Positions 1-14,135 of a stretch of 64,000 nt of DNA are shown in pieces. Each line of letters begins with the position of its first letter. The first letter of the stretch is position 1. Origin of the DNA: Devosia beringensis (lineage in GTDB: Bacteria > Pseudomonadota > Alphaproteobacteria > Rhizobiales > Devosiaceae); contig NZ_CP045422.1 of the NCBI RefSeq assembly GCF_014926585.1, positions 3,378,001 through 3,442,000 on the forward strand, given 5' to 3'. Under the pieces are notes generated by a model that was not told where the DNA came from, made no database searches, and saw nothing but the letters and a program-made list of their open reading frames with translations. The translations under genes and the position numbers were made by a program.

Positions 1-1850
1 GTGATGTTGACGCCGGAAATGCGGTTGCCCTCGCCCATCAGCGCCTGCAGGGCGGCCATGTCCATATAGGCGCCGAGGCCGAGATAGCTTTCCACAACGG
101 CCGCCACCTGCAGCTGGAATCGCTGCCGCTCGCCCTCGAGCAGGCGGATGTCGACGCTGTCGCCCGGGCCGACGCCCAGGATCCTGGCCAGGGACTGCGT
201 CAGCAGCACGCCCTGTGGCGGCATCGGCACCGGCTGCAGATCGGCATCGAGCATGCGGGTCATGGAACCGTTGGCGGGTCGCCCCATCAGGGCTATCTGG
301 CGCGTCACCTGGGCATGACCGATTTCGACGCCCACGGCACGGAAGGGCTCGGCTCCCAGCACACCGGGAAGGCGGGCGATCTCGGCCGTGGCGGCGAGGG
401 GCTTGCTGGTGGCAAAATTGACGATGGCGTCCTGCCGCTCGGTGCGGTTGAACGAATAGTCGATCATGAACTCGACGCCGCCCACCGACCAGAGCGAGCC
501 GACAAGCACGGCGACCGAGAGGGCAATGCCGACGATGCCACCGGCCGATCGCCAGGGTCGGTGCAGCAAGTGCCGCGTGACCATGACCCCGGTCTGGTGC
601 AGGGGCAGGGCGAAACGCCGCCGGCCGCTGTGCCGCCGATAGGTCGGCGGTGGCGGCGGCGACATTGCCACCGCGGGGGGAAGCACGGCGGCAGCCCGCA
701 CGGCGCGGATAGCGCCGGCCACCGCGGCTGCCAGCGTGATGCCGCCCGAAATGGCATAAAGGCTGGGTTCACGGCTGAAGACCAGGACGGGAAAGCTGTA
801 GAACCGCGTGTACATTTCGGTGAGGCCGTTGCCGGCCCAGATCCCGAAACCGGTGCCGATGATGATGCCGATAATGGCGATCAGCAGTACGAATTCCACA
901 TAGTGCCAGGCGATGGCCCGGCCGGAATAGCCAATGGCCTTGAGCAGGCCGATCTGCTCGCGCTCAAGCGCGATCAGGCGCGTCAGCGTCATGTTGACGA
1001 GAAAGGCCGCCACCAGCAGGAAAACCGGCGGCAATACCTCGCTCATCGAGCGCAACTGTTGCAGTTCGGCGTCCAGATAGGCATGGGAGGTCAGCTGGTC
1101 GCGGCCATGGGCGCCCTGCGCGCCATAGGGATCGAGCAGTTGATAGAGCCCGGTGATCACCGCCTCCTCGGAAGTGCCGGGCGCGAGCTGGACCGAGACG
1201 GCATTGAAGGCGCCGCCCAGGTCATAGGCCGCCGCCAGCGTCCGCTCGGGCACCCAGAGGATGCCGAAGCGCCCGCTATTGGGCGTCATCTCGCCGGGGG
1301 CGATGGCATAGAGATAGTCGGGTGCCAGGGCGATGCCGGTGATCGTCACCTCGCGCCGGGCGCCATTGACGACGACGCCAAACCGGGAGCCTTCGCGAAA
1401 GCCATGCGCCTGGGCAAAGATCTCGCTGACCACAGCCTCCATATGGTTGGCGGCTTCGGGCAGCCGCCCGCTGCGCAGATAGAGGCGGTTGAGCGTTCCT
1501 GCCTGTTGCGGGGGCAGCGAGATCAGGCGCACGGAGGCGGGTTGCTCCAGCCCCTCGATATCGGCCAGCGCCACCTTGGCGATGCGGCCGTCGACAGCCA
1601 GGACCCCGTCCATGGCACCGATCTTTGTCAGCATCGAGCGGGGCGCCCGGGTGACGGTGGCAAAGACATTGGCGAGGTGATGGCTCTGGTAATAGGCCTC
1701 GCGCGTGCGCTCCAGCGACTGATAGGTGCCGATGCCGATCAGCAGGGTTGCGACCCCGGCGGCCATGACCAGGGCGATGGCGAGCACCTGTGCCCACAGG
1801 CGCACGAGCTCGCGCAGCAGCTTGCGGTGCAGGGCATGCAGGCCGCTCAC
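1..1850 (-). CDS. FtsX-type ABC transporter permease, C-terminus cut by window edge
   Basis: This is the membrane subunit of a MacB/LolCDE-like exporter. The reading frame starts with GTG at 1850, inside the stop of the ATPase gene (GTGA overlap), which fixes the start by translational coupling. About 616 residues are visible. A hydrophobic segment at about residues 14-35 is followed by a large extracytoplasmic domain to about 265, then an FtsX-type membrane block containing the typical [15 protein letters not shown] stretch, more membrane segments to about 390, and the start of a second extracytoplasmic domain. Family members of this type are usually 780-850 residues, so the missing part is the last membrane block. 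Substrate cannot be told from the sequence. Confidence 0.85.
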
Positions 1851-2572
1851 CAGCGCACCGAGGCGGCTGGCTGGCGCTCGGCATTGGTGTCGATGGCGGC
1901 GATCCGGCCGTCGGCAAAACTGACGACGCGATGGGCAATGGTGCGGATGGCCGCGTTATGGGTAATCACCAGGGTAGTGGTCCCCAGCTCGGCATTAATC
2001 CGGGTGAGGGCTTCCAGCACGACAATGCCGGTCTTGGAATCCAGCGCGCCGGTCGGCTCGTCGCAGAGCAGGATGTCGGGTCGCTTGGCGATGGCGCGGG
2101 CAATGGCGACGCGCTGCTGTTCGCCCCCGGAGAGTTGAGCCGGAAAGTGGTCCATCCGGTCGGCCATGTCCACCATGGCCAGCGCTGCTTCGGGCGCCAT
2201 CGGATGGGCGGCGATTTCGGTGACCAGCTGCACGTTTTCCCGGGCCGTCAGGCTGGGCACCAGGTTGTAGAACTGGAACACGAAGCCGACATGGCGGCGG
2301 CGATAGCGGGTCAGACCGGTATCGTCGGCGCCGGTGATCTGCCAGTCGCGGAACCAGGCCTGGCCTGACGTGGCGGTGTCGAGACCGCCGATGAGATTGA
2401 GAAAGGTCGATTTGCCCGATCCCGAGGGCCCCAGGATGACGACGAATTCCCCGCTGGCGGCAACGAAATCGACCCCGTCCAAAGCGACGACCTGAGCGTC
2501 CCCGGCCGCATAGGCCTTGGTGAGCTGGCTGACCCGGAGTAGGTCCGAACGGGGGGGCGAGGCGCTGTCCAT
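1847..2572 (-). CDS. ABC transporter ATP-binding protein (MacB/LolD type)
   Basis: This 241-residue ATPase should power the FtsX-type permease encoded just downstream. Visible motifs are Walker [10 protein letters not shown] at about 48-56, the Q-loop region, signature [14 protein letters not shown] near 145, Walker [13 protein letters not shown] and the switch histidine in VITHN. The ALDS after Walker B is typical of the LolD/MacB clade. The ATG start at 2572 is the first start of the conserved domain. The gene is divergent from the phn operon, and an FNR-type box lies 34 bases upstream of the start, so oxygen-responsive expression is possible. Confidence 0.92.
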
Positions 2573-2605
2573 GACAAAAATCTAGCAGGATGCCATGGTC
2601 GCGCG

Positions 2606-2619
2606 TTGATTTCGGTCAA
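2606..2619. promoter_or_regulatory. FNR/FixK-type box
   Basis: TTGATTTCGGTCAA fits the FNR/FixK pattern TTGAY-N4-RTCAA exactly. It is 34 bases upstream of the ABC ATPase start (minus strand). It is one of six such sites in the window. Confidence 0.6.
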
Positions 2620-2735
2620 GTCGCGCAGTGCGTCGTGCTGGAGCCAACCGGACTATGTCTGTCGCAAGGCGGTTCCGAGAGGCAGGAAGGCCTTGTGCGC
2701 TCCACTCTGGCACAGGTCATGGCGACCAGGGCATC

Positions 2736-2753
2736 TCGTCATTGGCCTGTCAT
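2736..2753 (+). promoter_or_regulatory. PHO-box-like site upstream of phnF
   Basis: Two 7-mers, TCGTCAT and CTGTCAT, are separated by 4 bases. This is the geometry of the PhoB box (7-4-7, consensus CTGTCAT repeats); the second unit matches fully and the first 5 of 7. It lies about 50 bases before the phnF start, suggesting phosphate-starvation control of the phn operon. Confidence 0.6.
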
Positions 2754-2772
2754 CCACCGTCGCTAGGGTCCA

Positions 2773-2788
2773 ACTCATCCGAATGAGT
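2773..2788. promoter_or_regulatory. Palindromic operator candidate at phnF
   Basis: ACTCATCCGAATGAGT is an inverted repeat of 6-bp arms around a 4-bp centre. A near copy (14 of 16 positions) lies before phnC at 9270-9285. Sharing by the only two transcription-unit starts of the phn cluster points to a local regulator, most simply the GntR-type PhnF encoded directly downstream (inference). Confidence 0.5.
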
Positions 2789-2801
2789 GAAGCGGGCCTT
2801 T

Positions 2802-3560
2802 ATGCACAGTCGAGGGCAGACGTGGGAAACCACGCGGGACAAGATCAGCGAAGAAATCGCGGCGGGCCACCTGCCGCCGGACAGCCGGCTGCCGTCGGAG
2901 CCGGAGCTGTGCGTTCTTTATAACACCCGGCGGCATTCGCTGCGACGGGCGCTGGCGGCGCTGGTGGGGGAGGGCAAGCTGCGCGTCGAGCACGGCCGCG
3001 GCACCTTTGTCGAGCGGGCGTCGATGATCAACTACGTCATCGGGCCGCGCACCCGCTTCCGCGAGAACCTGCTGGCCCAGGGGCTAACCGCCTCCGGCCA
3101 GGCGATTTCGGAAATGCAGATTCCGGCGAGTGCCCGCGTTGCCGCTGCGCTGGGACTGGTCCCCGGGGCGCTGGTGACCGCCCGATCCTGGCGCGGCTTC
3201 GCCAACGACCTGCCGATCAGCCTGGGCTGGTCCTATCACGATGTTGCCCGCTTCCCCGATATTGCCGAGCGCCGCAAGGCAAACCCCTCGATCACCGCCA
3301 TCTACAAGACCTATGGCATCGAGGATTATCGTCGACAGAGCACGACGATCTTTACCCGCCTTGCCAACCCGCACGAGACTTCCCTGCTCATGATGCGGCC
3401 GGGCCAGTCGGTGCTGATCGTGCAGAAGGTCGACGTCGACCTCGCAGGCAACCCGATCGGCTTCTCCGAGGCGGCCTGGGCCGGCGATCGCGTGCAGTTC
3501 ACCTTCGAGAACGCCCCCACGGGCGAAGTGGTCAGCGAAAGGACCGATGATGTTCAATGA
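2802..3560 (+). CDS. phnF: GntR/HutC-family phosphonate operon regulator PhnF
   Basis: A 252-residue regulator with an N-terminal winged-helix GntR domain (LPSEPELCVLYNTRRHSL region, about residues 30-70) and a C-terminal UTRA ligand-binding domain (about 90-240). It should repress the phn genes and sense a phosphonate or pathway intermediate. ATG 2802 is preferred over an in-frame GTG at 2787, because the GTG lies inside the candidate operator palindrome. It is first in the phnFGHIJKLM operon and overlaps phnG by 14 bases. A PHO-box-like site and the palindrome lie upstream. Confidence 0.88.
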   Translation: MHSRGQTWETTRDKISEEIAAGHLPPDSRLPSEPELCVLYNTRRHSLRRALAALVGEGKLRVEHGRGTFVERASMINYVIGPRTRFRENLLAQGLTASGQAISEMQIPASARVAAALGLVPGALVTARSWRGFANDLPISLGWSYHDVARFPDIAERRKANPSITAIYKTYGIEDYRRQSTTIFTRLANPHETSLLMMRPGQSVLIVQKVDVDLAGNPIGFSEAAWAGDRVQFTFENAPTGEVVSERTDDVQ

Positions 3561-4002
3561 AGCCAGCGGCCCCGGGCCGGAACGGGCCGGCCATGCCGAG
3601 GCCCTGGGCGTTCTGGCGCGGGCGCGTCCCGCGCCGCTCAAGGCCCTGGCCGAAACCCTGCTGGAACCGATGGGCGATATCACCGTCATCGCCAACCGTA
3701 CCGGGCTGGTCATGGTGCCGATGCGCGACACCGTGGAAAATGTCGATTTTCACCTCGGCGAGGTGCTGGTGAGCGAGGCCCATATCGTCGATGCCGCCGG
3801 CCGCCTGGGCTACGGCATGATCACCGGCCGCGACCTCGAGCGCGCCATGGCCATGGCGGTGGTCGACCTAGCGCTCGCTGCGGATCCCGAGGCCGCCGCG
3901 ATCCGCCGCTTTATCGACAGCGAACACCAGCACCAGGCTGCGCTCGACGCGGCGCTGATGCGCCGGGTCGAGGCGACCCGCGTCGAGATGGAGACATTCT
4001 GA
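3547..4002 (+). CDS. phnG: C-P lyase complex subunit PhnG
   Basis: PhnG is a core subunit of the PhnGHIJ complex, which in E. coli takes part in coupling methylphosphonate to ATP-derived ribose triphosphate. The 151-residue length and conserved stretches such as LGEVLVSEAHI and GYGMITGRDLERA fit the family. It begins with two tandem ATG codons within the end of phnF and its stop overlaps the phnH start (TGATG), so translation is tightly coupled. Cytoplasmic, no signal peptide. Confidence 0.9.
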   Translation: MMFNEASGPGPERAGHAEALGVLARARPAPLKALAETLLEPMGDITVIANRTGLVMVPMRDTVENVDFHLGEVLVSEAHIVDAAGRLGYGMITGRDLERAMAMAVVDLALAADPEAAAIRRFIDSEHQHQAALDAALMRRVEATRVEMETF

Positions 4003-4538
4003 TGCTAACCGTAGCCCCGCCCGATGCCGTTGAGGCGCGCGACAATGCCACCTTCGAAGCGCTGATGTGGTCGATGGCCCGTCCCGGCGAGAGTCGCGAA
4101 CTGCCCGAGGCCGGCCTTGCCGGCATCGTCGATGCCCTGATCGATCGCGAATGCGTGGCCTATGCCGACAATGCAGCATTGACCCGGAAGATCGCCGCAA
4201 CCGGTGCCCTTGCCGGTGAGCTGCACCAGGCCGACCACGTGTTCCTCGACAGCCTTGATGCCGCCGCCGATGCCCTCGCTGCCATTCGCTGCGGCAACGC
4301 GCTCTATCCCGATGAAGGCGCGACGCTGGTGGCCCAGGTCAGCCATGGCCAAGGCCAGCGCCTGCGCCTGACAGGCCCTGGCATTGACGGCTCCCGTGAA
4401 CTTGCACTTGCCTTGCCTTCAGCCTTCTGGGCCCTGCGCCAGCAGCTTTGCGCCTATCCGGAGGGGTTTGAACTCCTTCTGGTCGATGGCCGTTCGGTCA
4501 TCGGCATTCCCCGCTCCACCCAGATCGAGGTGCTCTGA
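4002..4538 (+). CDS. phnH: C-P lyase complex subunit PhnH
   Basis: A 178-residue PhnH homolog, slightly shorter than the E. coli protein. Family-typical stretches are the N-terminal FEALMWSMARPGE, the central VFLDSLDAAADALAAIRCG and the C-terminal PEGFELLLVDGRSVIGIPRST. PhnH is a PLP-transferase-fold scaffold protein without a known catalytic residue in the core complex. The stop is immediately followed by the phnI start (no spacer). Confidence 0.9.
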   Translation: MLTVAPPDAVEARDNATFEALMWSMARPGESRELPEAGLAGIVDALIDRECVAYADNAALTRKIAATGALAGELHQADHVFLDSLDAAADALAAIRCGNALYPDEGATLVAQVSHGQGQRLRLTGPGIDGSRELALALPSAFWALRQQLCAYPEGFELLLVDGRSVIGIPRSTQIEVL

Positions 4539-5639
4539 ATGGCCTATGTCGCAACCCGCGGTGGCGAAAAGGCCATCGAACAGGCCGAACGCCTGTTCCG
4601 CCAGGACCTTGGTACCATCGACATCGCCCGCGTCGCGGCCATTCGCCAGTCCATGCCCTATCTCATTGATCGGGTCATGGGCGAAGCCTCGCTCTATGAC
4701 GAAGACATGGCGGCGCTGGCGCTGGCCCAGACCGGCGGCGAACTCTCCGAAGCCGTGCTGGTGCTGCGCGCCTGGCGCACGACGCAGCCGCGCCTGGCAG
4801 TCGCCGCCCCCCTGCGGCAGGAACATCTGCTGACGCAGCGCCGCATCTCGGCCGCGTTCAAGGATATTCCGGGCGGACAGATCCTCGGGCCGACGCTGGA
4901 CTATTCTCACCGCGTGCTGGCCACCGACGTCTTCGAAGGCATCCCCTACCACCCGCCAGCGGTTGACGCGGCAGCGCGGCCCGCGCCGATGCGGCAGCCG
5001 TCGCTGGCCGACTGGCAGCGCCAGCAGGGCCTGGTGGCGCCGGCCACCGAGCCGCAGGTGGCACGCGATGACATTCCTGACCTCACGCGGGAGCCGCTGC
5101 TGTTTCCCGCCTCGCGGGCGCATCGGCTGCAGAGCCTGGCCCGGGCCGAAACCGGGGGTGTGCTGGCGCTCGGCTATGCTGCCATGCGCGGCTATGGCAA
5201 TGCCCATCCCACGGTCAATGAGTTGCGGCTGGCCGAAGCCGAGGTGGTGGTGCGCCATCCCTGTGGCACGGAATTTTCGGCGGGCCGCGTGCGCGTCTGC
5301 CAGGCCGAGGTCACATCCAAGGAAAAGGGTGGTTTTCTCGAACTGGGTTTTGCCGCCAGCTTCGGCTGGAACGAGGTCAAGGTGATCGCCGCGGCGACAC
5401 TCGATCTCAACTCGGCTGAGGCGCCGTTGGGCTCGCCCATGCACGAGGAATTCTACCTCTACCATACCGAAAGCGTCGAAGCCTCGGGCTTCTGCATCCA
5501 CTTCAAGCTGCCCCATTACGTGACCTTCCAGTCGGTGCTGGATGCCATGCGTGACGCCAAGGCAAAGGCTGCCGCGGCTGACGCCCATGACGACGATGAC
5601 GCCTTGGCCCAAGCACGCCAGACGGAGCCCGCAGAATGA
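4539..5639 (+). CDS. phnI: C-P lyase complex subunit PhnI
   Basis: A 366-residue homolog of PhnI, the nucleosidase-type subunit that in E. coli displaces adenine from ATP with PhnGHL to make the ribose-phosphonate triphosphate. Conserved blocks include the N-terminal YVATRGGEKAIEQAE, the RRISAAFKDIPGGQILGPT block, and near the C-terminus HFKLPHYVTFQ, which keeps the H-x4-H histidines used for metal binding in the E. coli core complex. The C-terminal 25 residues are acidic and alanine-rich and look like an add-on. It overlaps phnJ by the ATGA junction. Confidence 0.92.
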   Translation: MAYVATRGGEKAIEQAERLFRQDLGTIDIARVAAIRQSMPYLIDRVMGEASLYDEDMAALALAQTGGELSEAVLVLRAWRTTQPRLAVAAPLRQEHLLTQRRISAAFKDIPGGQILGPTLDYSHRVLATDVFEGIPYHPPAVDAAARPAPMRQPSLADWQRQQGLVAPATEPQVARDDIPDLTREPLLFPASRAHRLQSLARAETGGVLALGYAAMRGYGNAHPTVNELRLAEAEVVVRHPCGTEFSAGRVRVCQAEVTSKEKGGFLELGFAASFGWNEVKVIAAATLDLNSAEAPLGSPMHEEFYLYHTESVEASGFCIHFKLPHYVTFQSVLDAMRDAKAKAAAADAHDDDDALAQARQTEPAE

Positions 5640-6550
5640 CCCTTGCTTCCCTCACCAAGCCCTGGGCCGCCACCAGCTATGGTTTTCTCGACGCCTCGGC
5701 CAAGCGCGAGCTGCGCCGCAAGATGCTCAAGGCCATCGCCGTGCCCGGCTGCCAGATGCCCTATGCCAGCCGCGAAGTGCCCATGGCGCGCGGCTGGGGC
5801 ACGGGGGGGCTGCAGGTCACGCTGACCCTGGTCAATCCGCAATCGACCATCAAAGTTATCGACCAGGGCGCCGATGACGGCGTCAATGCCGCCTCGATCC
5901 GCCGCTTCATCAGCCGTGTTTCGGGCGCGGCGGAAACCTGGGATACGCTGGAAGCCTCGATCATCCAGTCGCGTCACCGCGTGCCGGAAGAGACCCTGGC
6001 TGCCGATCAGATCCTGGTGCTGCAGGTGCCCAATCCCGAGCCGCTGCGCGGGGTAGAGCCCAATATGTCGATCGCCCGGCAGATGCATGCCGATGCCGAT
6101 TATGGCCGGCTCTGGCTGACGCTCTATGAGCAGATGGTGCGCAAGGGCCGTATCATGCAGGGCGCCGCCTATCCGAGCCTGGTCAATGGCCGCCACGTGA
6201 TGACGCCCTCGCCGATCCCGCGCTGGGACGTTCCCAAGCTCAATATGGCGCAGCACCTTACCTTCCTGTCGGCTGGCCGGGAAAAACGCCTGCATGCCGT
6301 GCCGCCCTTCACGCGAGTGGAGCCCCTAGTGTTTTCCGACCGGCCCTATCGCGTCGAGGATCACGCCGAGCTGGTGTGCCGCCGCTCGGGCGTCGCCGGC
6401 TATTTCATGAACGAGATCCCGCAGGACCAGGGCGGCTCGGTGTTCGAGATTTCCGACAGCAATCTGGGCATCAAGGCCATTCGCCAGGCAGAAGGCGAAG
6501 TGGTGGCGATCGGCACCACCTGGTACCGGAACGGGGAGTATTCGGCATGA
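5636..6550 (+). CDS. phnJ: PhnJ homolog lacking the radical-SAM cysteine cluster
   Basis: A 304-residue PhnJ homolog, unmistakable from the blocks GWGTGGLQVTLTLV, KVIDQGADDGVN, IIQSRHRVPEETL, PSPIPRWDVPKLNM and AGREKRLHAVPPFTRVE. In E. coli PhnJ, Cys241, Cys244 and Cys266 hold the 4Fe-4S cluster and Cys272 is catalytic. By hand alignment Cys241 is kept (C248 here), but Cys244 is S251, Cys266 is I272 and Cys272 is G278 (block VFEISDSNLG). The protein also carries about 25 extra C-terminal residues. The reading frame is clean, so this is substitution, not a frameshift. It may have a different chemistry or be inactive; all neighbours are intact. Confidence 0.9.
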   Translation: MTLASLTKPWAATSYGFLDASAKRELRRKMLKAIAVPGCQMPYASREVPMARGWGTGGLQVTLTLVNPQSTIKVIDQGADDGVNAASIRRFISRVSGAAETWDTLEASIIQSRHRVPEETLAADQILVLQVPNPEPLRGVEPNMSIARQMHADADYGRLWLTLYEQMVRKGRIMQGAAYPSLVNGRHVMTPSPIPRWDVPKLNMAQHLTFLSAGREKRLHAVPPFTRVEPLVFSDRPYRVEDHAELVCRRSGVAGYFMNEIPQDQGGSVFEISDSNLGIKAIRQAEGEVVAIGTTWYRNGEYSA

Positions 6551-7368
6551 GCATCGACATGACTTCGGCGCCGGCCGAACTGCTGCCGCCGCAGCTGATG
6601 CAGACAGAGGCGCTGCTGACCATGCGCGGCGTGTCCCGCCGCTATGGCGCGGTGCGCGCGCTGCGCCAGGTCGACGTCAATGTCTATCCGGGCGAGGTAC
6701 TTGGCATTGTCGGGGAAAGCGGTTCGGGCAAGTCGACCCTGCTGCGCATGATGAACCTCGAGGATACGCCCGATGCCGGCGATTACCGCCTGCGCCTGCC
6801 CGGGCGCGACGATGGCAACCTGTTTGCACTGGGGCGCTACGAGCGGCGCATGCTGTGTGCGCACCATATTGGCATCGTCTACCAGAACCCGCATCTGGGC
6901 CTGCTGATGCGGCACAGTTCGAGCGGCAATGTCGCCGAACGGTTGCTCATCGCCGGCGAGCGCAGCTTTGAGGTCTTGCGCGGCAAGGCACGGGACGCGC
7001 TCGACGCTTCCGAATTCCCGCTGTCGCGCATGGATGCGCGGCCGGCCGAACTGTCGGGCGGCATGCAGCAGCGCGTGCAGCTGGCCAAAGCCATTGCCCT
7101 CGAACCGGCGCTGCTGCTGCTGGACGAGCCGACCACGGGGCTCGACGTCAGCGTGCAGGCCCTGGTGCTCGATACGCTCAAGCGCCTGCAGCGCGACCGC
7201 CGCATTACCATGGTGCTGGTTAGCCACGATCTGGGTGTCATCCGCACCATGGCGGACCGCGTGCTGGTCATGCGGCATGGCGAGGTGGTGGAGCAGGGCT
7301 TGTGCGACCAGGTGTTCCAGGACCCACAGCACCCCTATACCCAGCAACTCGTCCACGCCAAGCTCTAG
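6547..7368 (+). CDS. phnK: C-P lyase-associated ABC-type ATPase PhnK
   Basis: PhnK is a soluble ABC-family ATPase that docks on the PhnGHIJ core and is not a transporter subunit. The ATG at 6547 overlaps the phnJ stop (ATGA) and gives 273 residues. Motifs: Walker A GESGSGKST at about 56-64, signature LSGGMQQRVQLAKA near 169, Walker B LLLLDEPTTGLD near 190, and the C-terminal VFQDPQHPYTQQLV that resembles oligopeptide-type ATPases. A longer upstream reading frame exists inside phnJ but the ATGA start is far more likely. Confidence 0.9.
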   Translation: MSIDMTSAPAELLPPQLMQTEALLTMRGVSRRYGAVRALRQVDVNVYPGEVLGIVGESGSGKSTLLRMMNLEDTPDAGDYRLRLPGRDDGNLFALGRYERRMLCAHHIGIVYQNPHLGLLMRHSSSGNVAERLLIAGERSFEVLRGKARDALDASEFPLSRMDARPAELSGGMQQRVQLAKAIALEPALLLLDEPTTGLDVSVQALVLDTLKRLQRDRRITMVLVSHDLGVIRTMADRVLVMRHGEVVEQGLCDQVFQDPQHPYTQQLVHAKL

Positions 7369-7376
7369 GGGCCGCC

Positions 7377-8114
7377 ATGACACACGACAACCATCTGCCC
7401 CTGCTGCGCGTCGACGGGTTGAGCAAGACCTTCCGCATGTATCATCTCGACAGCATGCTGCATGCCTTCGAGGGGATCAGCTTTGACCTGCATGCGGGCG
7501 AGTTCCTGCTGCTCAAGGGTCGCAACGGCGCCGGCAAGTCGACGCTGCTGCGTACGCTGTGGCGCAGCTATCTGCCCGTCGCCGGCCATATCTGGTACCA
7601 GTCCAGCCTGGGCACCATCGACCTGGCGCGCGCCGCCGATGTCGACATCGCGTTGTTGCGTCGCCAGGAAATCGGCTTTGTCACGCAGTTCCTCAATGCC
7701 CGTCCTCGCGTTGCCGCCCAGGACATTGTCGCCGAACCGCTGCGGCTGGCCGGCTATGCGCCCGATGAGGCCCTGGAGCAGGCGCGGCACTGGCTGGGCG
7801 AGTTCGGCGTCCGCCCCGAACTCTGGCGCGCCTATCCCAGCACGTTTTCCGGCGGCGAACAGCAGAAGGTCAACCTGGCCCGCGCGCTGATCCTGCCGCA
7901 GCGCCTGCTGCTGCTCGACGAGCCAACCGCTTCGCTCGATGTCGGTGCCCGGGCCGCGCTGGTGCGGCGTCTCGCCGACCTCAAGGCCGCCGGCGTGGCC
8001 ATTGTCGGGGTATTTCACCATCCGGGCGATGTCGCCGACCTCATCGATCGCGAGATCGATCTGGTCACCCATCCTGTTTCTTTTCCGCGCGAGTTGACCC
8101 ATGTGGCTGTCTGA
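7377..8114 (+). CDS. phnL: C-P lyase-associated ABC-type ATPase PhnL
   Basis: A 245-residue ABC ATPase, the second ATPase of the pathway. Walker A GRNGAGKST lies at about 48-56, signature FSGGEQQKVNLARA near 158, Walker B LLLLDEPTASLD, and the H-loop region VGVFHHPG has the family's HHPG in place of the usual SHD. ATG 7377 lies 8 bases after the phnK stop with GGGG as a weak ribosome site. It overlaps phnM by 14 bases. Confidence 0.9.
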   Translation: MTHDNHLPLLRVDGLSKTFRMYHLDSMLHAFEGISFDLHAGEFLLLKGRNGAGKSTLLRTLWRSYLPVAGHIWYQSSLGTIDLARAADVDIALLRRQEIGFVTQFLNARPRVAAQDIVAEPLRLAGYAPDEALEQARHWLGEFGVRPELWRAYPSTFSGGEQQKVNLARALILPQRLLLLDEPTASLDVGARAALVRRLADLKAAGVAIVGVFHHPGDVADLIDREIDLVTHPVSFPRELTHVAV

Positions 8115-9288
8115 TTTCCGCATTGTCCTGGCCGACCGCGTCATCGACCACGGCGCCTTGCGCGTCGAGGATGGCCTGATCGTCGAGGTCCGCCAGACCC
8201 CGGTCGAGCAGGCCGATATCGACGGGCAGGGCCTGCTGCTGATGCCCGGCATGATCGACATGCATGGCGACATGATCGAACGCGAGATCGAGCCGCGCCC
8301 CAATGTCCGGATGCCGATGGAAATGGGCCTGCGCGACCTTGACCGCAAGCTGGCCAATTCGGGCATCACCACCGCCTATGCGGCAGTATCGTTTAGCCCC
8401 GGATCGACCTATGGCCACATGCGCTCCTATGATTTCACCAGCGAAATGATCCGGGCGCTGCGCGCGCACCAGGCCGAGCTGCTGGTCGACCACCGCGTGC
8501 ATGCCCGCTTCGAGGTGACGTTTCCGGCAGCCCTGTCGGTGGTCAAGGAACTGATCGCCGAAGGCGCGGTGGATCTGATCTCGCTGTGCGACCATACGCC
8601 GGGGCAGGGCCAGTATCGCGATCTGGCGCTGCAGGCGGCCAATCTGGCCAAGTCCAAGGGCATTACCCTCGAGCAGGCGCGGGCAAATCTCGACCAGCGT
8701 ATCCGCGACCGGAAGGAAACAGCGGGCGACCTGAGCGCCACGCTGCGCGCCATTGCCCAATATTGCGCGCTCCATGGCGTGCCACTGGCCAGCCATGACG
8801 ACGACACGGTGGAAAAGGTGGTGCAGATGCAGGCGCTGGGTGCCCATATCAGCGAGTTCCCGGTGACGCTCGAGGCGGCACGCGAAGCCCATAGCCGCGG
8901 TATGCTCAATGCCATGGGCGCCCCCAATGCGCTGCGTGGCATCTCCTATTCGGGCAATCTGTCGGCCCGCGAGGCCCATGCCCATGGCCTGCTCGATTTG
9001 CTGGCTGCCGACTACCACCCGTCCGCCATGCTGCCTGCGGTACTGGTGCTGGGCAAGACCGATCCAGATGGCCTCGCCGGCGCCACCCGGCTGGCGACAC
9101 GCAATCCGGCGAGCGTCCTGGGGCTTGAGGATCGCGGCGAAATCGCCCTGGGCCTGCGCGCCGATCTCATCATCGCCGACGATACCGGGGTGGGGCATGT
9201 GCGCACCACCATCTGCAGGGGCGCCGTGGCCTATTCCGACGGCAGCATGGTCCCGATCCGTCACCGTGGTGTCATTCGAATGAGTTAA
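8101..9288 (+). CDS. phnM: PhnM-type amidohydrolase (ribose phosphonate triphosphate diphosphatase family)
   Basis: A 395-residue amidohydrolase at the place of phnM, which in E. coli removes diphosphate from the ribose phosphonate triphosphate. The metal-binding start is PGMIDMHGDMIEREIEPRPN, so H-G-D-M stands where the E. coli type has H-T-D-N. A later SLCDHTPGQGQY block, the ASHDDDT block and a late YHPSAML fit the amidohydrolase fold. It thus seems to be a diverged subgroup. Last gene of the first phn unit; no phnN kinase follows. Its last codons overlap the control region of phnC. Confidence 0.85.
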   Translation: MWLSDFRIVLADRVIDHGALRVEDGLIVEVRQTPVEQADIDGQGLLLMPGMIDMHGDMIEREIEPRPNVRMPMEMGLRDLDRKLANSGITTAYAAVSFSPGSTYGHMRSYDFTSEMIRALRAHQAELLVDHRVHARFEVTFPAALSVVKELIAEGAVDLISLCDHTPGQGQYRDLALQAANLAKSKGITLEQARANLDQRIRDRKETAGDLSATLRAIAQYCALHGVPLASHDDDTVEKVVQMQALGAHISEFPVTLEAAREAHSRGMLNAMGAPNALRGISYSGNLSAREAHAHGLLDLLAADYHPSAMLPAVLVLGKTDPDGLAGATRLATRNPASVLGLEDRGEIALGLRADLIIADDTGVGHVRTTICRGAVAYSDGSMVPIRHRGVIRMS

Positions 9289-9297
9289 CGGTGTCAT
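9269..9297 (+). promoter_or_regulatory. PHO-box-like repeat array plus palindrome upstream of phnC
   Basis: GTGTCAT occurs at 9269-9275 and again at 9291-9297, exactly 22 bases apart, with a weaker unit ATGAGTT between them, giving an 11-base period as in PHO boxes. Overlapping it, TCATTCGAATGAGT (9272-9285) repeats the palindrome found before phnF. The site covers the phnM stop and lies 62-90 bases before phnC. Confidence 0.5.
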
Positions 9298-9358
9298 GCA
9301 AGCCGGTTAGCTTCAACACAAGCCTGACGACCCGACGACCTCGAAAAAAGGTAGTGAC

Positions 9359-10186
9359 ATGCTTGAACTGAGGAAGATCACCAAGACATTCGGCCAGACC
9401 ATTGCGGTCAACAATGTCTCCCTGAGCTTTCCGGCTGGCCAGATGGTCGGCATCATTGGCCGGTCTGGGGCGGGCAAGTCCACGCTGCTCCGCCTGATCA
9501 ACCGCCTCGCCAGTACGGGCCAGGGCGATATCGTGTTCGACAACATCCATATCGGCAAGCTGACCGGCCGCGAATTGCGGGCCTGGCGTTCGCGCTGCAC
9601 CATGATTTTCCAGCAGTTCAACCTGGTGAACCGGCTCGACGTGCTCACCAATGTACTGATTGGCCGGATTGGTACCGCGGCCACGCTGCCGATCATGTTC
9701 AAGCATTTCTCGACCCAGGATCGCGCTGCCGCGGCCATGGCGCTCGATCGCCTCGATCTGCTGCCGCAGGCGCTGCAGCGCGCCGACACCCTGTCGGGTG
9801 GCCAGCAGCAGCGTGTGGCCATTGCCCGGGCACTGATCCAGAATCCCTCGATGATCCTGGCCGATGAGCCCATCGCCTCGCTCGACCCGCGCAATGCACG
9901 ACTGGTGATGGATGCGCTGCGCACCATCAACCAGCAGGACAAGATCACCGTCATCTGCAATCTGCATACGCTCGACGCCGCCCGGGCCTATTGCGACCGC
10001 ATTGTCGGCATGGCGCAGGGCAGGGTGGTGTTCGATGGTACACCCGCCCAGCTGACCTCTCGGGTGATCCAGGAAATCTATGGCGGCGACAACGAAGATA
10101 CCGTGGACGAGAACCTTACCTCGACCATGGCTGCCCACATGACGGCCAAGGCCGACATGCAACGACAAATGGCCGACGTCGAGTAG
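9359..10186 (+). CDS. phnC: Phosphonate-type ABC transporter ATP-binding protein
   Basis: A 275-residue ATPase energising uptake through the two PhnE subunits downstream. Walker [10 protein letters not shown] at about 34-42, signature [14 protein letters not shown] near 146, Walker [14 protein letters not shown] and the switch histidine in NLHTLD are all present. The [10 protein letters not shown] form is typical of PhnC. ATG 9359 is preceded by AAAGG. It starts the phnCDEE unit; a PHO-box-like array is upstream. Confidence 0.92.
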
Positions 10187-10222
10187 GCGTCGCCACTCAA
10201 ACCCTTCAACCGGAGCATTGCT

Positions 10223-11143
10223 ATGTTCACTTACCTGCGCCACGGCCTCGCGGCCGTGCTGATTTCGGCTGCCGTCATGTCGCCCGTCCTGGCTCAGGAC
10301 TGGCGCGAGCAATATCCCGAACTGACCATCGGCATTTCCTCGGGCGAGAACGAAACCGATGCCATCGCCCGCAACGAGCCCTATGCCGCGTATCTGAGCG
10401 AAGCGCTCGGCGTGCCGGTCAAGATCGTGCGCGGCACTGACTACGCGGCCATTGTGGAAGCGATGCGCTCGGAACATGTGCATATCGCCTCGGTCGGCCC
10501 GGCCGCCTATGCGCTGGCCCGCAAGATCATGGGTGAGGATGTCGCGCCGGTGGCCGTCACACTCGATAACGAGGGCAATCTTGGATACTATTCGGTGATC
10601 GCCGTACGCGCCGACAGCCCCTATCAGTCCCTAGAGGACATCAAGGGCAAGTCGTTTGCCTTCGCCGATCCGAATTCGACGTCCGGCTATGCCGTGCCCT
10701 CCTATTACCTGGCCACCGAACTCGATACCTCGGCTGACGAGTACTTCAGTGAAGTGGCCTTCTCGGGCGGGCACGAGCAGAGCGTGATGGCCCTGGTCAA
10801 CGGCACGTTCGAAGCCGTCGCCACGCACTGGCGCAATGAAGAGGCCGGCAATATCCAGACCATGGAAAGCAAGGGCCTGATCGAAGAGGGGTCGACCCGC
10901 ATCATCTGGACCTCGCCGGTTATCCCCAATACGCCCGTCATGATCCTGACGACCCTGCCGCAGGAACTGCAGGACGAATTCAAGGCGGCGCTGCTGGCCT
11001 TCCCCACCGCAGATCCAGAAGGCTTCGCTGCATACACCCGCGGCACCTCAAGCGGCTATGTCGAGGCCACCCACGAAGACTATCTCGATGTCGTGGCAAT
11101 TACCGAATTCAACGCCGCCGAACGTCGCCGCACCGCCAACTGA
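10223..11143 (+). CDS. phnD: Periplasmic phosphonate-type substrate-binding protein
   Basis: A 306-residue PhnD-family solute-binding protein. The first 26 residues are a Sec signal peptide (hydrophobic GLAAVLISAAVMSPVLA followed by QD, cleavage after ALA-type motif). The mature domain has the family pattern: LTIGISSGENE, then an SVGPAAY block and FADPNSTSGY that contact phosphonate or phosphate oxygens in relatives. It delivers substrate to PhnE1/PhnE2. The actual ligand could be a phosphonate, phosphite or another phosphorus compound and is not decided by sequence. Confidence 0.9.
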   Translation: MFTYLRHGLAAVLISAAVMSPVLAQDWREQYPELTIGISSGENETDAIARNEPYAAYLSEALGVPVKIVRGTDYAAIVEAMRSEHVHIASVGPAAYALARKIMGEDVAPVAVTLDNEGNLGYYSVIAVRADSPYQSLEDIKGKSFAFADPNSTSGYAVPSYYLATELDTSADEYFSEVAFSGGHEQSVMALVNGTFEAVATHWRNEEAGNIQTMESKGLIEEGSTRIIWTSPVIPNTPVMILTTLPQELQDEFKAALLAFPTADPEGFAAYTRGTSSGYVEATHEDYLDVVAITEFNAAERRRTAN

Positions 11144-11208
11144 CGTTGCCATGGCACGCGAGGATCACCCTCGCGTGCCAATCTGCCATCGCGACGAGGA
11201 ATGACCCG

Positions 11209-12120
11209 ATGATGTTGCCCGAACCGGCCACCGGCCCACGTCCCACCGACCACAGGCACGACCGCCTCGCCGCCTTTGAAACCCGCTATCACCAGGTCAG
11301 GGCTACCCGCCGGCTATGGACCGGTCTCTATGGCGCACTGTTCCTGGCGGCGCTCGTAGCCTCGGTCATGGTCAGCGATTTCAACCTGCCCGGACTGATG
11401 GACGGGCTGCCCAAGGCTTGGAACTACATTGCCGGCACCATGCCGACCCTGACGCTGGCCAATTTCGGTGCCGATATGGCCGAGTGGTACTGGGGCCTGC
11501 GTTTCTGGCTGCGCCTCTTGGTCGAAACCATTCTGATGGGCTTTGTCGGCACCGTTGCGGGTGGCGCAATTGCCCTGCTGCTGTGCTTTTCCGCCTCGCG
11601 CAACCTGGCTCCCAATACCGCCGTCTATATCCTCTCGCGCCGGGTGCTCGAATTCTGCCGCACCGTGCCCGAACTGGTCTTTGCCCTGATCTTTGTCTTT
11701 GCCTTCGGCCTCGGTCCCTTTGCCGGCGTGCTGGCGATCGCCGTGCATACCGCCGGCTCGCTGGGCAAGCTGTTTGCCGAGGTCAACGAGAATGTCGATG
11801 AGCGGCCGATCGATGGCGTGCGCTCGGCCGGCGGCAACTGGCCCATGGTGATGCGCCTGGCCGTAGTGCCACAGGCCCTGCCCAATTATGCCAGTTATCT
11901 GTTGCTGCGCTTCGAGATCAATGTGCGCGGTGCTTCCGCGCTCGGGATTGTCGGGGCAGGGGGCATCGGCCAGGAGCTCTATGTCGCCATCCGGCAGTTC
12001 GAATATACCGACATCTCCGCCATCATGCTGCTGCTCATCGCGACGGTGTCGATCATCGATATCGCCTGTGAGTCCATTCGCCACCGGATCATCGGCAACC
12101 ACTTCATGACGGGGCACTGA
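11209..12120 (+). CDS. phnE: Phosphonate-type ABC transporter permease 1
   Basis: A 303-residue inner-membrane permease. ATG 11209 is chosen because GACGAGGA ends 8 bases before it; a longer in-frame extension exists but lacks this site. There are about six membrane segments, and the cytoplasmic coupling loop EFCRTVPELVFALIF followed by ALGIVGAGGIGQEL is the PhnE signature. It pairs with the second permease two bases downstream. Confidence 0.9.
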   Translation: MMLPEPATGPRPTDHRHDRLAAFETRYHQVRATRRLWTGLYGALFLAALVASVMVSDFNLPGLMDGLPKAWNYIAGTMPTLTLANFGADMAEWYWGLRFWLRLLVETILMGFVGTVAGGAIALLLCFSASRNLAPNTAVYILSRRVLEFCRTVPELVFALIFVFAFGLGPFAGVLAIAVHTAGSLGKLFAEVNENVDERPIDGVRSAGGNWPMVMRLAVVPQALPNYASYLLLRFEINVRGASALGIVGAGGIGQELYVAIRQFEYTDISAIMLLLIATVSIIDIACESIRHRIIGNHFMTGH

Positions 12121-12122
12121 CC

Positions 12123-12971
12123 ATGCAGACCATTTCCGCTGCCGATATCGCGCGCATCAAGGCCATCAACCCGCAATTGCTGGCCCGTCCGCTGGCCCAG
12201 CGCCTGCGCGACTGGAGCCTGTGGCTCGGCATCCTGGCGCTGCTGGGCTATGGCCTGTGGTGGATCGATGCCTCGCCAATGCGGGTCGTCAACGGCCTGT
12301 CCAAGCTGGGCATGCTGGTCAGCCTGATGATCCCGCCCTGGCCGGGCGACGGCTTCTGGGACTTTTGCTACGCTATTGCCGAAACCCTCGCCATGGCCTT
12401 TCTGGGTACGCTGATCGCCGCCGTCGTGGCGCTGCCGCTCGGCTTTCTGGGCGCCAAGAACGTCGTGCCCAACTGGCTGTTCCACTTCAGCCTGCGCCGC
12501 TTCTTCGATGGCTTTCGCGGTATTGACGGCCTCGTCTGGGCGCTGATCTTCGTCTCGGCAGTCGGCCTTGGCCCCTTTGCCGGCGTGCTGGCCATTGCCG
12601 TGGGCGACGTCATGATCTTCGGCAAGCTCTTCGCCGAGGCCATCGAGAATGTGGATGACAAGCAGGTTGAGGGCGTGCGGGCCAGCGGCGGCAGCGACAG
12701 CCATGCCATGCGGCTGGGCGTCTTCCCGCAGGTCTTTCCGGTGATGCTGAGCCACGTGCTCTATTTCTTTGAATCCAATGTGCGCTCGGCCACCATTCTG
12801 GGTATTGTGGGCGCCGGCGGCATCGGGCTGCAGCTGTCGGACCGCATGCGCATCAACAAGTGGGACGAGGCCGCCTTCATCATCCTGATGATCCTGGTCA
12901 CGGTGGCCGTAATCGACAACATCTCCCGCCGCATCCGGATGAAACTGATCCAGGCGACGCCGCAGGGGTGA
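12123..12971 (+). CDS. phnE: Phosphonate-type ABC transporter permease 2
   Basis: A 282-residue permease, paralogous to the preceding one (shared LGPFAGVLAIAV, VEGVRASGG and ILGIVGAGGIGLQL blocks). It begins two bases after the stop of permease 1. Two-permease PhnE systems are common in Hyphomicrobiales. Together with PhnC and PhnD it forms a complete importer. Confidence 0.9.
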   Translation: MQTISAADIARIKAINPQLLARPLAQRLRDWSLWLGILALLGYGLWWIDASPMRVVNGLSKLGMLVSLMIPPWPGDGFWDFCYAIAETLAMAFLGTLIAAVVALPLGFLGAKNVVPNWLFHFSLRRFFDGFRGIDGLVWALIFVSAVGLGPFAGVLAIAVGDVMIFGKLFAEAIENVDDKQVEGVRASGGSDSHAMRLGVFPQVFPVMLSHVLYFFESNVRSATILGIVGAGGIGLQLSDRMRINKWDEAAFIILMILVTVAVIDNISRRIRMKLIQATPQG

Positions 12972-13352
12972 CCTGTCCTGGCCGAGGCCGGCGGACTGCG
13001 CAGGACGGGTGATATCGTATCCGCCACCGGCCGCTTTCGGATTTCCCATGCCGGGGGGCGATCACGCCGATCGCCGGTCTGCGCCGGATGCAGCTCTCGA
13101 CCCCGTTCCACCCGTTCGGTATGGTCGGGCGAATCCAGTACGCCGCCGCGTCATCGGTGCTAGTCTCGGCCGGTTGACCGCCGTTGAGTGGCGCATGACT
13201 CCACTATTTTCAGCACCGGGCAGTCACATTTGTGTCCGCATCTCGACTGAACCTGCGAGGAGGTGACATGCTGTGTCTCATCTCCTGCGCCGCTGGCAGC
13301 AGAACCAGCAAGCGATCCCTCGCCCAACGACAAACCCGGTAGAGCAGACATC
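12972..13352 (+). other. Intergenic region with possible 24-codon leader ORF
   Basis: Just after phnE a weak hairpin (GTCCTG and CAGGAC arms, about 12975-13006) may end the phn transcript. At 13257-13265 a near-perfect ribosome site GAGGAGGTG precedes ATG 13268, opening a 24-codon frame that stops with TAG at 13340-13342, eleven bases before the SDR start. It could be a leader peptide, a truncated gene start, or an alternative start region for the SDR (an in-frame GTG lies at 13263). Otherwise I see nothing coding here. Confidence 0.35.
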
Positions 13353-14135
13353 ATGGCCGATATTGAACTCGTTATCCCCGACCTGACCGGCAAGGCCGTG
13401 CTCATCACCGGTGCATCCACCGGGATTGGCGCCGCGCTGGCTGCGGCCTTTGCGGCGCAGGGCGCCAAGGTGGGCCTGCACTACAATTCCAGCGTCGACG
13501 CTGCGACTGAACTGGCTGCGAAGATTACGCAGGACGGCGGCACCGTTGTGCTGGTCCGGGCCGATGCCAACAAGGCCGCCGAAATGCGCCGGGCCGTCGA
13601 GGAATCCGTGGCCGCCTTTGGCCGTCTCGACGGGCTGATCAACAATGCCGGCGGCATGGTGGCCAGAGTGCCCTATGCCGAGATGACCGACGCGCATTAC
13701 GACGCCGTCATGGATCTCAATGCGCGCTCGGTCCTGGCCGCCAGCGCCGCCGCCATCCCGCATCTCAAAGCCGCCGGCGGTGGCTTCATCATCAACACGA
13801 CCTCGATCGCGGCCCGCAATGGCGCGAGCAATGGCGCGGGGATCTACGGCTCGTCCAAGGCCTTCGTCGCCAATGTCACGCGCGGCATGGCCAAGGAACT
13901 CATCGCTTTCGGCATTCGCGTCAATGCCGTCTCGCCCGGCGTGATCACCACGCCATTCCACGAACGCTATTCGACGCCGGCGCAGATGGATGCGGCTCTG
14001 GCCACTATCCCGCAGGGACGCCATGGCCGCCCCGAAGAGTGTGTCGGCGCCTACCTGTTCCTGGCGTCAAACGCCCTGTCGAGCTACATCATTGGCCAGG
14101 AGATCCAGGTCAATGGCGGCCAGCTGATGCCCTGA
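13353..14135 (+). CDS. Short-chain dehydrogenase/reductase
   Basis: A classical SDR of 260 residues from ATG 13353. It shows the cofactor motif GASTGIG at about 20-26, NNAG near 96, catalytic Tyr and Lys in YGSSK near 166-170, and the C-terminal QVNGGQLMP typical of the family. It likely oxidises or reduces a sugar or polyol hydroxyl group; the substrate is unknown. First of four same-strand genes that look like a carbohydrate-modifying operon without its own transporter. Confidence 0.88.
   Translation: MADIELVIPDLTGKAVLITGASTGIGAALAAAFAAQGAKVGLHYNSSVDAATELAAKITQDGGTVVLVRADANKAAEMRRAVEESVAAFGRLDGLINNAGGMVARVPYAEMTDAHYDAVMDLNARSVLAASAAAIPHLKAAGGGFIINTTSIAARNGASNGAGIYGSSKAFVANVTRGMAKELIAFGIRVNAVSPGVITTPFHERYSTPAQMDAALATIPQGRHGRPEECVGAYLFLASNALSSYIIGQEIQVNGGQLMP

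Follow-up and report, generated by a model that had tools for sequence, protein, structure and literature searches.

The phn locus of Devosia beringensis

The window, a stretch of 64,000 nucleotides from the genome of Devosia beringensis, contains an operon of the C-P lyase pathway in which phnG, phnH, phnI, phnJ, phnK, phnL and phnM are present together with the genes of a phosphonate importer (Table 1). An earlier note, made from the sequence alone, had described a full phn cluster, and profiles, annotation and synteny establish that phnFGHIJKLM-CDEE is complete. The phnJ gene of this operon encodes a protein without the cysteines of the iron-sulfur cluster; such genes, their products and their operons are called Cys-less here, and those with all four cysteines (CCCC) canonical. 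Directly 3′ of phnE2 is a gene for an SDR oxidoreductase (13263-14135), which is not conserved beside other Cys-less operons.

Table 1. Features of the Cys-less phn locus (window coordinates)
Feature	Coordinates	Strand	Evidence or remark
Pho-box-like direct repeat CGTCATTGGCCTGTCAT, 5′ of phnF	2737..2753	+	pattern match
Palindrome CTCATCCGAATGAG, likely PhnF operator	2774..2787	.	uniqueness and conservation
phnF, GntR/UTRA repressor	2787..3560	+	Pfam GntR and UTRA; true start probably ATG at 2802
phnG	3547..4002	+	Pfam PhnG 2.2e-22
phnH	4002..4538	+	Pfam PhnH 2.4e-30
phnI, metal-site His (E. coli H219, H328, H333) kept	4539..5639	+	Pfam PhnI 6e-104; alignment to 7z15_C
PhnI Cys319 codon (E. 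coli position 326), two residues ahead of metal ligand His328	5493..5495	+	
phnJ without cluster cysteines	5636..6550	+	304 aa; ORF, Pfam PhnJ, alignment, model
C-terminal cluster region of phnJ, codons C248/S251/I272/G278 (E. coli C241/C244/C266/C272)	6377..6469	+	
phnK, ABC ATPase	6547..7368	+	profile search; annotation and synteny
phnL, ABC ATPase	7377..8114	+	profile search; synteny
phnM, ribose 1-phosphonate 5-triphosphate diphosphatase	8101..9288	+	NCBIfam NF011988 1e-150, above cut-off
Second Pho-box-like site CGTCACCGTGGTGTCAT, 3′ end of phnM, ahead of phnC	9259..9275	+	pattern match
phnC	9359..10186	+	synteny
phnD	10223..11143	+	Pfam Phosphonate-bd 1e-62
phnE1	11146..12120	+	Pfam BPD_transp_1; true start probably about 11212
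phnE2	12123..12971	+	synteny

Sites upstream of phnF and phnC

The pattern CGTCAYN5TGTCAY has two matches in the window against 0.02 expected (at least two in 0 of 100 shuffles), of which the phnC site alone is independent because the pattern was derived from phnF-upstream regions. The site 5′ of phnF recurs at the equivalent place in Devosia-type Cys-less loci, and the one ahead of phnC has an equivalent relative place in most of them. The palindrome has no second exact match in the 4.05 Mb genome and is conserved 5′ of phnF in Devosia-type Cys-less operons; it is predicted to be the likely PhnF operator. Together the Pho-box-like sites and the palindrome suggest that the Cys-less operon is under phosphate-starvation control.

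PhnJ without cluster cysteines

The earlier note described phnJ as a clean homolog of 304 codons, and this description stands: the open reading frame matches the PhnJ profile (PF06007) with E=2.7e-113 and 378 bits, against a gathering cut-off of 25. Residues 14-276 of the protein align with residues 8-270 of E. coli PhnJ (4xb6_D), and the superposition of an AlphaFold2 model on the same structure spans residues 10-284 (Z 28.7, rmsd 2.8), from which it follows that the cluster region is truly aligned. Sequence alignment and superposition both place C248, S251, I272 and G278 at E. coli C241, C244, C266 and C272, the same correspondence as in the earlier hand alignment, so that C, S, I and G occupy the positions of the four cysteines of a radical-SAM C-P lyase. 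The proposed radical site Gly32 of E. coli is G38 in the window PhnJ. The PhnJ fold is matched, C-terminal domain included, with a central insertion (about 134-177) modelled at low confidence. In the model the C-terminal domain consists of a hairpin and a helix with pLDDT about 84-91, which indicates that it folds in silico without the metal knuckle. The C-terminus, previously estimated to be longer by about 25 residues, has an extension of ~20-25 residues that is conserved across most of the Cys-less clade.

Phylogeny and distribution of Cys-less PhnJ

PhnJ genes were gathered by scanning a single genome of each species, by genome searches and from plasmids. Typing of 195 genes, some of them the same gene obtained twice by different routes, gave 113 with the full set of cysteines, 82 with no more than the first, and no intermediates; at 90% non-redundancy there are 90 canonical and 35 Cys-less sequences. 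When the C-terminal columns were omitted from the tree, a single branch separated the Cys-less sequences from the others (SH-aLRT 99; 95 with Thermus), and the PhnI proteins linked to them form one clade in a separate tree (SH-aLRT 100). Four-cysteine forms surround the Cys-less clade, in a tree whose root is not fixed with respect to loss or primitive absence of the cysteines. The earlier note had proposed looking for such a clade with conserved operon context, and for a second, canonical phnJ in the genome; the clade is there with its operon context, and a gene with all four cysteines is located at C1:581013-581849.

The clade extends over three phyla. In Alphaproteobacteria it includes Devosia and relatives, Nitratireductor, Paracoccus, Haematobacter, Roseobacter-type genera, Phyllobacterium, Mesorhizobium, Neorhizobium and Microvirga, and it is also found in Chloroflexota and on two plasmids of Thermus thermophilus, one of them pVV8 of strain HB8. 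Cys-less PhnJ is scarce among 385 sampled Alphaproteobacteria (the window genome and one other), and it accounts for 12 of the 37 genomes with PhnJ in a sample of 400 Chloroflexota, all 12 of which lack any other PhnJ. It is likewise the sole PhnJ of Haematobacter; both forms are present in the window genome and in many Rhodobacterales. A loss common to 82 of 195 PhnJ in three phyla without intermediates can be attributed neither to chance nor to error, and on the evidence of the sequences Cys-less PhnJ is an old, conserved clade of Alphaproteobacteria, Chloroflexota and Thermus.

Several individual records are of interest. A Rhodobacteraceae genome (UBA6796, L042) has tandem phn operons within positions 1-12761, the Cys-less one at 1877 and the canonical one at about 11207. 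Microvirga sp. VF16 (NZ_CP069355.1) has tblastn matches to PhnJ at nine places on one plasmid record. The phn genes of a metagenome-assembled genome labelled Bacteroidetes (L029) are Anaerolineae-like, and the label may be a mis-assignment.

Conserved and altered residues

In cryo-EM structures (PMC9947105), the ribosyl ligand bound at the PhnI/PhnJ metal site is held by loop 47-50, R107, H108 and Q124 of PhnJ. These residues and Gly32 are invariant in both classes, with one exception: 5 of 90 canonical sequences have F in place of W48. The metal-site histidines of PhnI (H219, H328 and H333) are present without exception (81/81 Cys-less operons, 111/111 canonical ones). The proposal that the other subunits keep their motifs holds, for a full operon in which the substrate-site residues of PhnJ are conserved as well.

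To judge from the alignments, the clearest compensating change would be the cysteine of PhnI beside His328. Position 326, a valine in E. coli, is Cys in 79 of 81 Cys-less operons versus 1 of 111 canonical ones (that of the tandem operons of L042), and D318E and S/E/Q327I accompany it in the Cys-less operons. Since both Thermus have Ala at this position, Cys326 is not obligatory for the Cys-less state. The AlphaFold model of PhnI (pLDDT 42) has too low a confidence for placing Cys319 relative to the metal.

Changes specific to the clade in PhnJ include A201H, Q203T and G206S; C248 is near-invariant, with Asp in two Chloroflexota. No replacement cysteine is conserved among the 35 Cys-less PhnJ of the non-redundant alignment. 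The candidate C39, which follows Gly32, was rejected, being found in 15 of the 35 and also in 2 of 90 canonical sequences. Single clade-enriched cysteine columns occur in PhnH, PhnK and PhnM as in PhnI (Cys319), but a cluster-like set of new conserved cysteines was found in no phn subunit. Because the cysteines required for the proposed 4Fe-4S/thiyl chemistry are lost, PhnJ has no substitutes for them and the other motifs are kept, the radical-SAM mechanism in its published form cannot operate, in agreement with the earlier conclusion that the known chemistry is precluded.

Apparent replacement of the canonical core in Devosia-type genomes

In six Devosia-type genomes, one of them a single contig, the Cys-less form is the sole PhnJ. 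Five of these (L114-L118) have Cys-less phnFGHIJKLM-CDEE back to back with the remainder of a canonical operon, which consists of a second phnM (only a short match in L115), phnN, the TIGR03308 acetyltransferase gene and, at four of the five loci, phnCDE; canonical phnF-L is absent, and no remnant of the canonical phnG-L core was found at the Cys-less-only loci. The sixth genome (L006) has phnN and the TIGR03308 gene at its Cys-less locus. The interval between phnN and the TIGR03308 gene is about 10 bases in the three loci that were read (L114, L116 and L117). All six genomes have intact phnN, with dN/dS of 0.093, compared with 0.053 for PhnJ and 0.052 for PhnI, values that reflect strong purifying selection; the second phnM is shortened or missing in two of them, and its dN/dS was set aside because orthologues were mixed.

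In five genomes it looks like the Cys-less core was substituted for the canonical core inside the same pathway, and the six Cys-less-only genomes may represent one event. The position of the Cys-less core beside phnN and accessory genes suggests that the pathway is unchanged (ribosyl-phosphonate to ribose bisphosphate to PRPP) and that only its cleavage step differs; an unrelated substrate is the less likely reading. A phnN gene is present in the window genome, and phnN adjoins the Cys-less operon in the Cys-less-only relatives; by itself it is no proof of the product, because another phnN paralogue occurs in Devosia-type genomes even without phnJ. Three genomes of the same genus (G002, G004 and G007) have phnN-family kinases above the cut-off and no phnJ at all, so PhnN must have another role there. 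In Chloroflexota phnN is absent regardless of PhnJ type, and PhnP was not found above the cut-off in either class of Devosia or of Chloroflexota; PhnP and PhnN were thus rejected as discriminators between the classes in Chloroflexota.

Cys-less operons encode no conserved extra enzyme beyond the TIGR03308 acetyltransferase, itself common in canonical operons. In two metagenome-assembled genomes labelled Anaerolineae and Bacteroidetes (L024 and L029), the operon is followed immediately by the TIGR03308 gene and genes for phosphonatase PhnX and HpnW FAD oxidoreductase. At three other loci (L008, L009 and L011), the Cys-less operon is adjoined by opposite-strand genes of a second phosphonate system. 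Each of these loci encodes a PhnM-like hydrolase; L008 and L011 also have genes for a PhnDCE-type transporter and a SAM-methyltransferase-like protein, and a TIM-barrel (CbiR-like) gene is present in L009 and L011.

Proposed function and alternatives

The locus is a complete, constrained and probably regulated operon of the C-P lyase type that lacks the PhnJ cluster. The preferred reading, held with somewhat less than even confidence, is that its products form a working, cluster-free complex, regulated by phosphate starvation, in which the PhnI/PhnJ metal site has taken over cleavage. The more tentative proposal is that this site, remodelled with two histidines and, in most cases, the new cysteine, might break the C-P bond of the ribosyl phosphonate without SAM or a 4Fe-4S cluster, and so could replace the radical enzyme.

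The known pathway consists of ribose coupling by PhnI with PhnG, PhnH and PhnL, trimming by PhnM and opening driven by PhnK and PhnL (PMC9947105, PMC10574752). By analogy, the Cys-less PhnI with PhnG, PhnH and PhnL would couple the phosphonate to the ribose of ATP, PhnM would trim the coupled product to a 5-phosphate, and hydrolysis of ATP by PhnK and PhnL would open and close the core. The P-C (or P-X) bond would then be broken at the PhnI/PhnJ metal site itself to yield a cyclic or bis-phosphate usable by PhnN. In the likeliest polar form, a metal-activated ribose 2′-OH would attack phosphorus and expel a stabilized carbanion, a route appropriate to activated phosphonates. Methylphosphonate would not be handled easily in this way, because alkyl C-P bonds that are not activated are resistant to hydrolysis. 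Alternatively, the metal of the site might be redox-active, with PhnI Cys319 as its ligand or as a thiol donor.

Cleavage at the metal site is favoured by the existence of one clade without intermediates, the retention of the PhnJ substrate-site residues and PhnI histidines, the PhnI cysteine beside His328, the dN/dS of about 0.05, the replacement of the core beside phnN, the status of sole PhnJ in several genomes, and the Pho-box-like sites; it is also favoured by published structures, in which the PhnI/PhnJ interface has a ligand-bound metal site and the cluster is 30 A from the radical glycine (PMC9947105). It is weakened by Ala at position 326 in Thermus, by the phnN paralogues of genomes without phnJ, by the Chloroflexota that lack phnN, and by the possibility that replacement occurred only once.

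It is unlikely that the complex ribosylates a phosphorus compound without cleaving it, the 5-phosphoribosyl ester made by PhnI and PhnM being passed on, stored or exported. Such a role would account for the loss of cleavage residues with retention of the coupling steps (PhnI, PhnM and the ABC pair), and the PhnX and HpnW encoded 3′ of the operon in L024 and L029 could cleave; however, these enzymes are missing at most Cys-less loci, no conserved extra enzyme is encoded in the operons, and the idea is weakened further by the retention of phnN beside the replaced core and by a constraint on PhnJ equal to that on PhnI.

The persistence of radical chemistry, either through activation of Gly32 by a separate Fe-S protein or through a cluster on non-Cys ligands, is improbable despite the invariance of Gly32 in the Cys-less clade, a glycine that may be structural: the one cluster position that comes close to invariance is C248, itself replaced by Asp in two Chloroflexota, new conserved cysteines are single ones such as PhnI Cys319 rather than a set, and the operons contain no activase gene. 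Where both types coexist, as in the window genome, many Rhodobacterales and the tandem operons of L042, the Cys-less complex could be imagined to borrow the cell's canonical PhnJ for the cleavage step, but the absence of any other PhnJ from six Devosia-type genomes, Haematobacter and all 12 sampled Cys-less Chloroflexota makes this very improbable. Equally little weight is given to the idea that the four cysteines are a structural metal site, non-catalytic even in canonical enzymes, and that a clade without the knuckle works like E. coli. They are said to coordinate zinc as well (PMC11978286), and the distance of the cluster from Gly32 and a metal site unreconciled with the mechanism (PMC9947105) would fit; yet all four are present in 90/90 non-redundant canonical PhnJ, and the published biochemistry, to the extent quoted in PMC9947105, shows a SAM-dependent glycyl-radical reaction. 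Finally, a decaying, mis-sequenced or lone pseudogene copy, suggested by the missing catalytic motif and by the canonical copy elsewhere in the genome, is barely conceivable and is refuted by 82 sequences in three phyla, dN/dS of about 0.05 and an intact operon.

Significance

The structural biologists of C-P lyase describe the way in which it cleaves the C-P bond as an unresolved conundrum, in that their structures do not reconcile the cluster, the radical glycine and the metal site with one another (PMC9947105). The Cys-less clade has dropped the cluster and kept the metal site, glycine and ATPases; evolution has separated the parts and made the question testable. This widespread, unrecognized branch implies that the C-P bond may be broken another way in nature. 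In surveys, four cysteines have served to confirm functional PhnJ (PMC11978286) and sequences without essential residues have been removed (PMC9381506), whereas the Cys-less genes carry the ordinary C-P lyase name at NCBI; therefore, the potential for phosphonate-to-methane conversion has probably been mis-scored, in one direction or the other. No description of Cys-less PhnJ was found in the literature searched, which took in few subscription papers, and this absence is no proof of novelty.

Comparison with known systems

The window operon shares with E. coli C-P lyase all of the subunits, the PhnJ fold, Gly32, the phosphoribose-binding residues and the PhnI metal-site histidines. It differs in that its PhnJ, about 47% identical to that of E. 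coli, lacks equivalents of C244, C266 and C272 and has a conserved C-terminal extension, and in the PhnI cysteine at position 326. The canonical operon of the same genome (L112, C1:581013 region) has the same gene content plus phnN and a TIGR03308 acetyltransferase gene; its CCCC PhnJ is 48% identical to the Cys-less PhnJ, and it is this type of operon that has lost its core in the Cys-less-only relatives. The phn cluster on pVV8 of T. thermophilus HB8 also encodes a Cys-less PhnJ, which bears the plain annotation C-P lyase PhnJ. In contrast to the window, pVV8 has Ala at position 326 of PhnI, a single phnE, no phnF and a LacI regulator nearby, and its PhnJ is the deepest sampled branch of the Cys-less clade.
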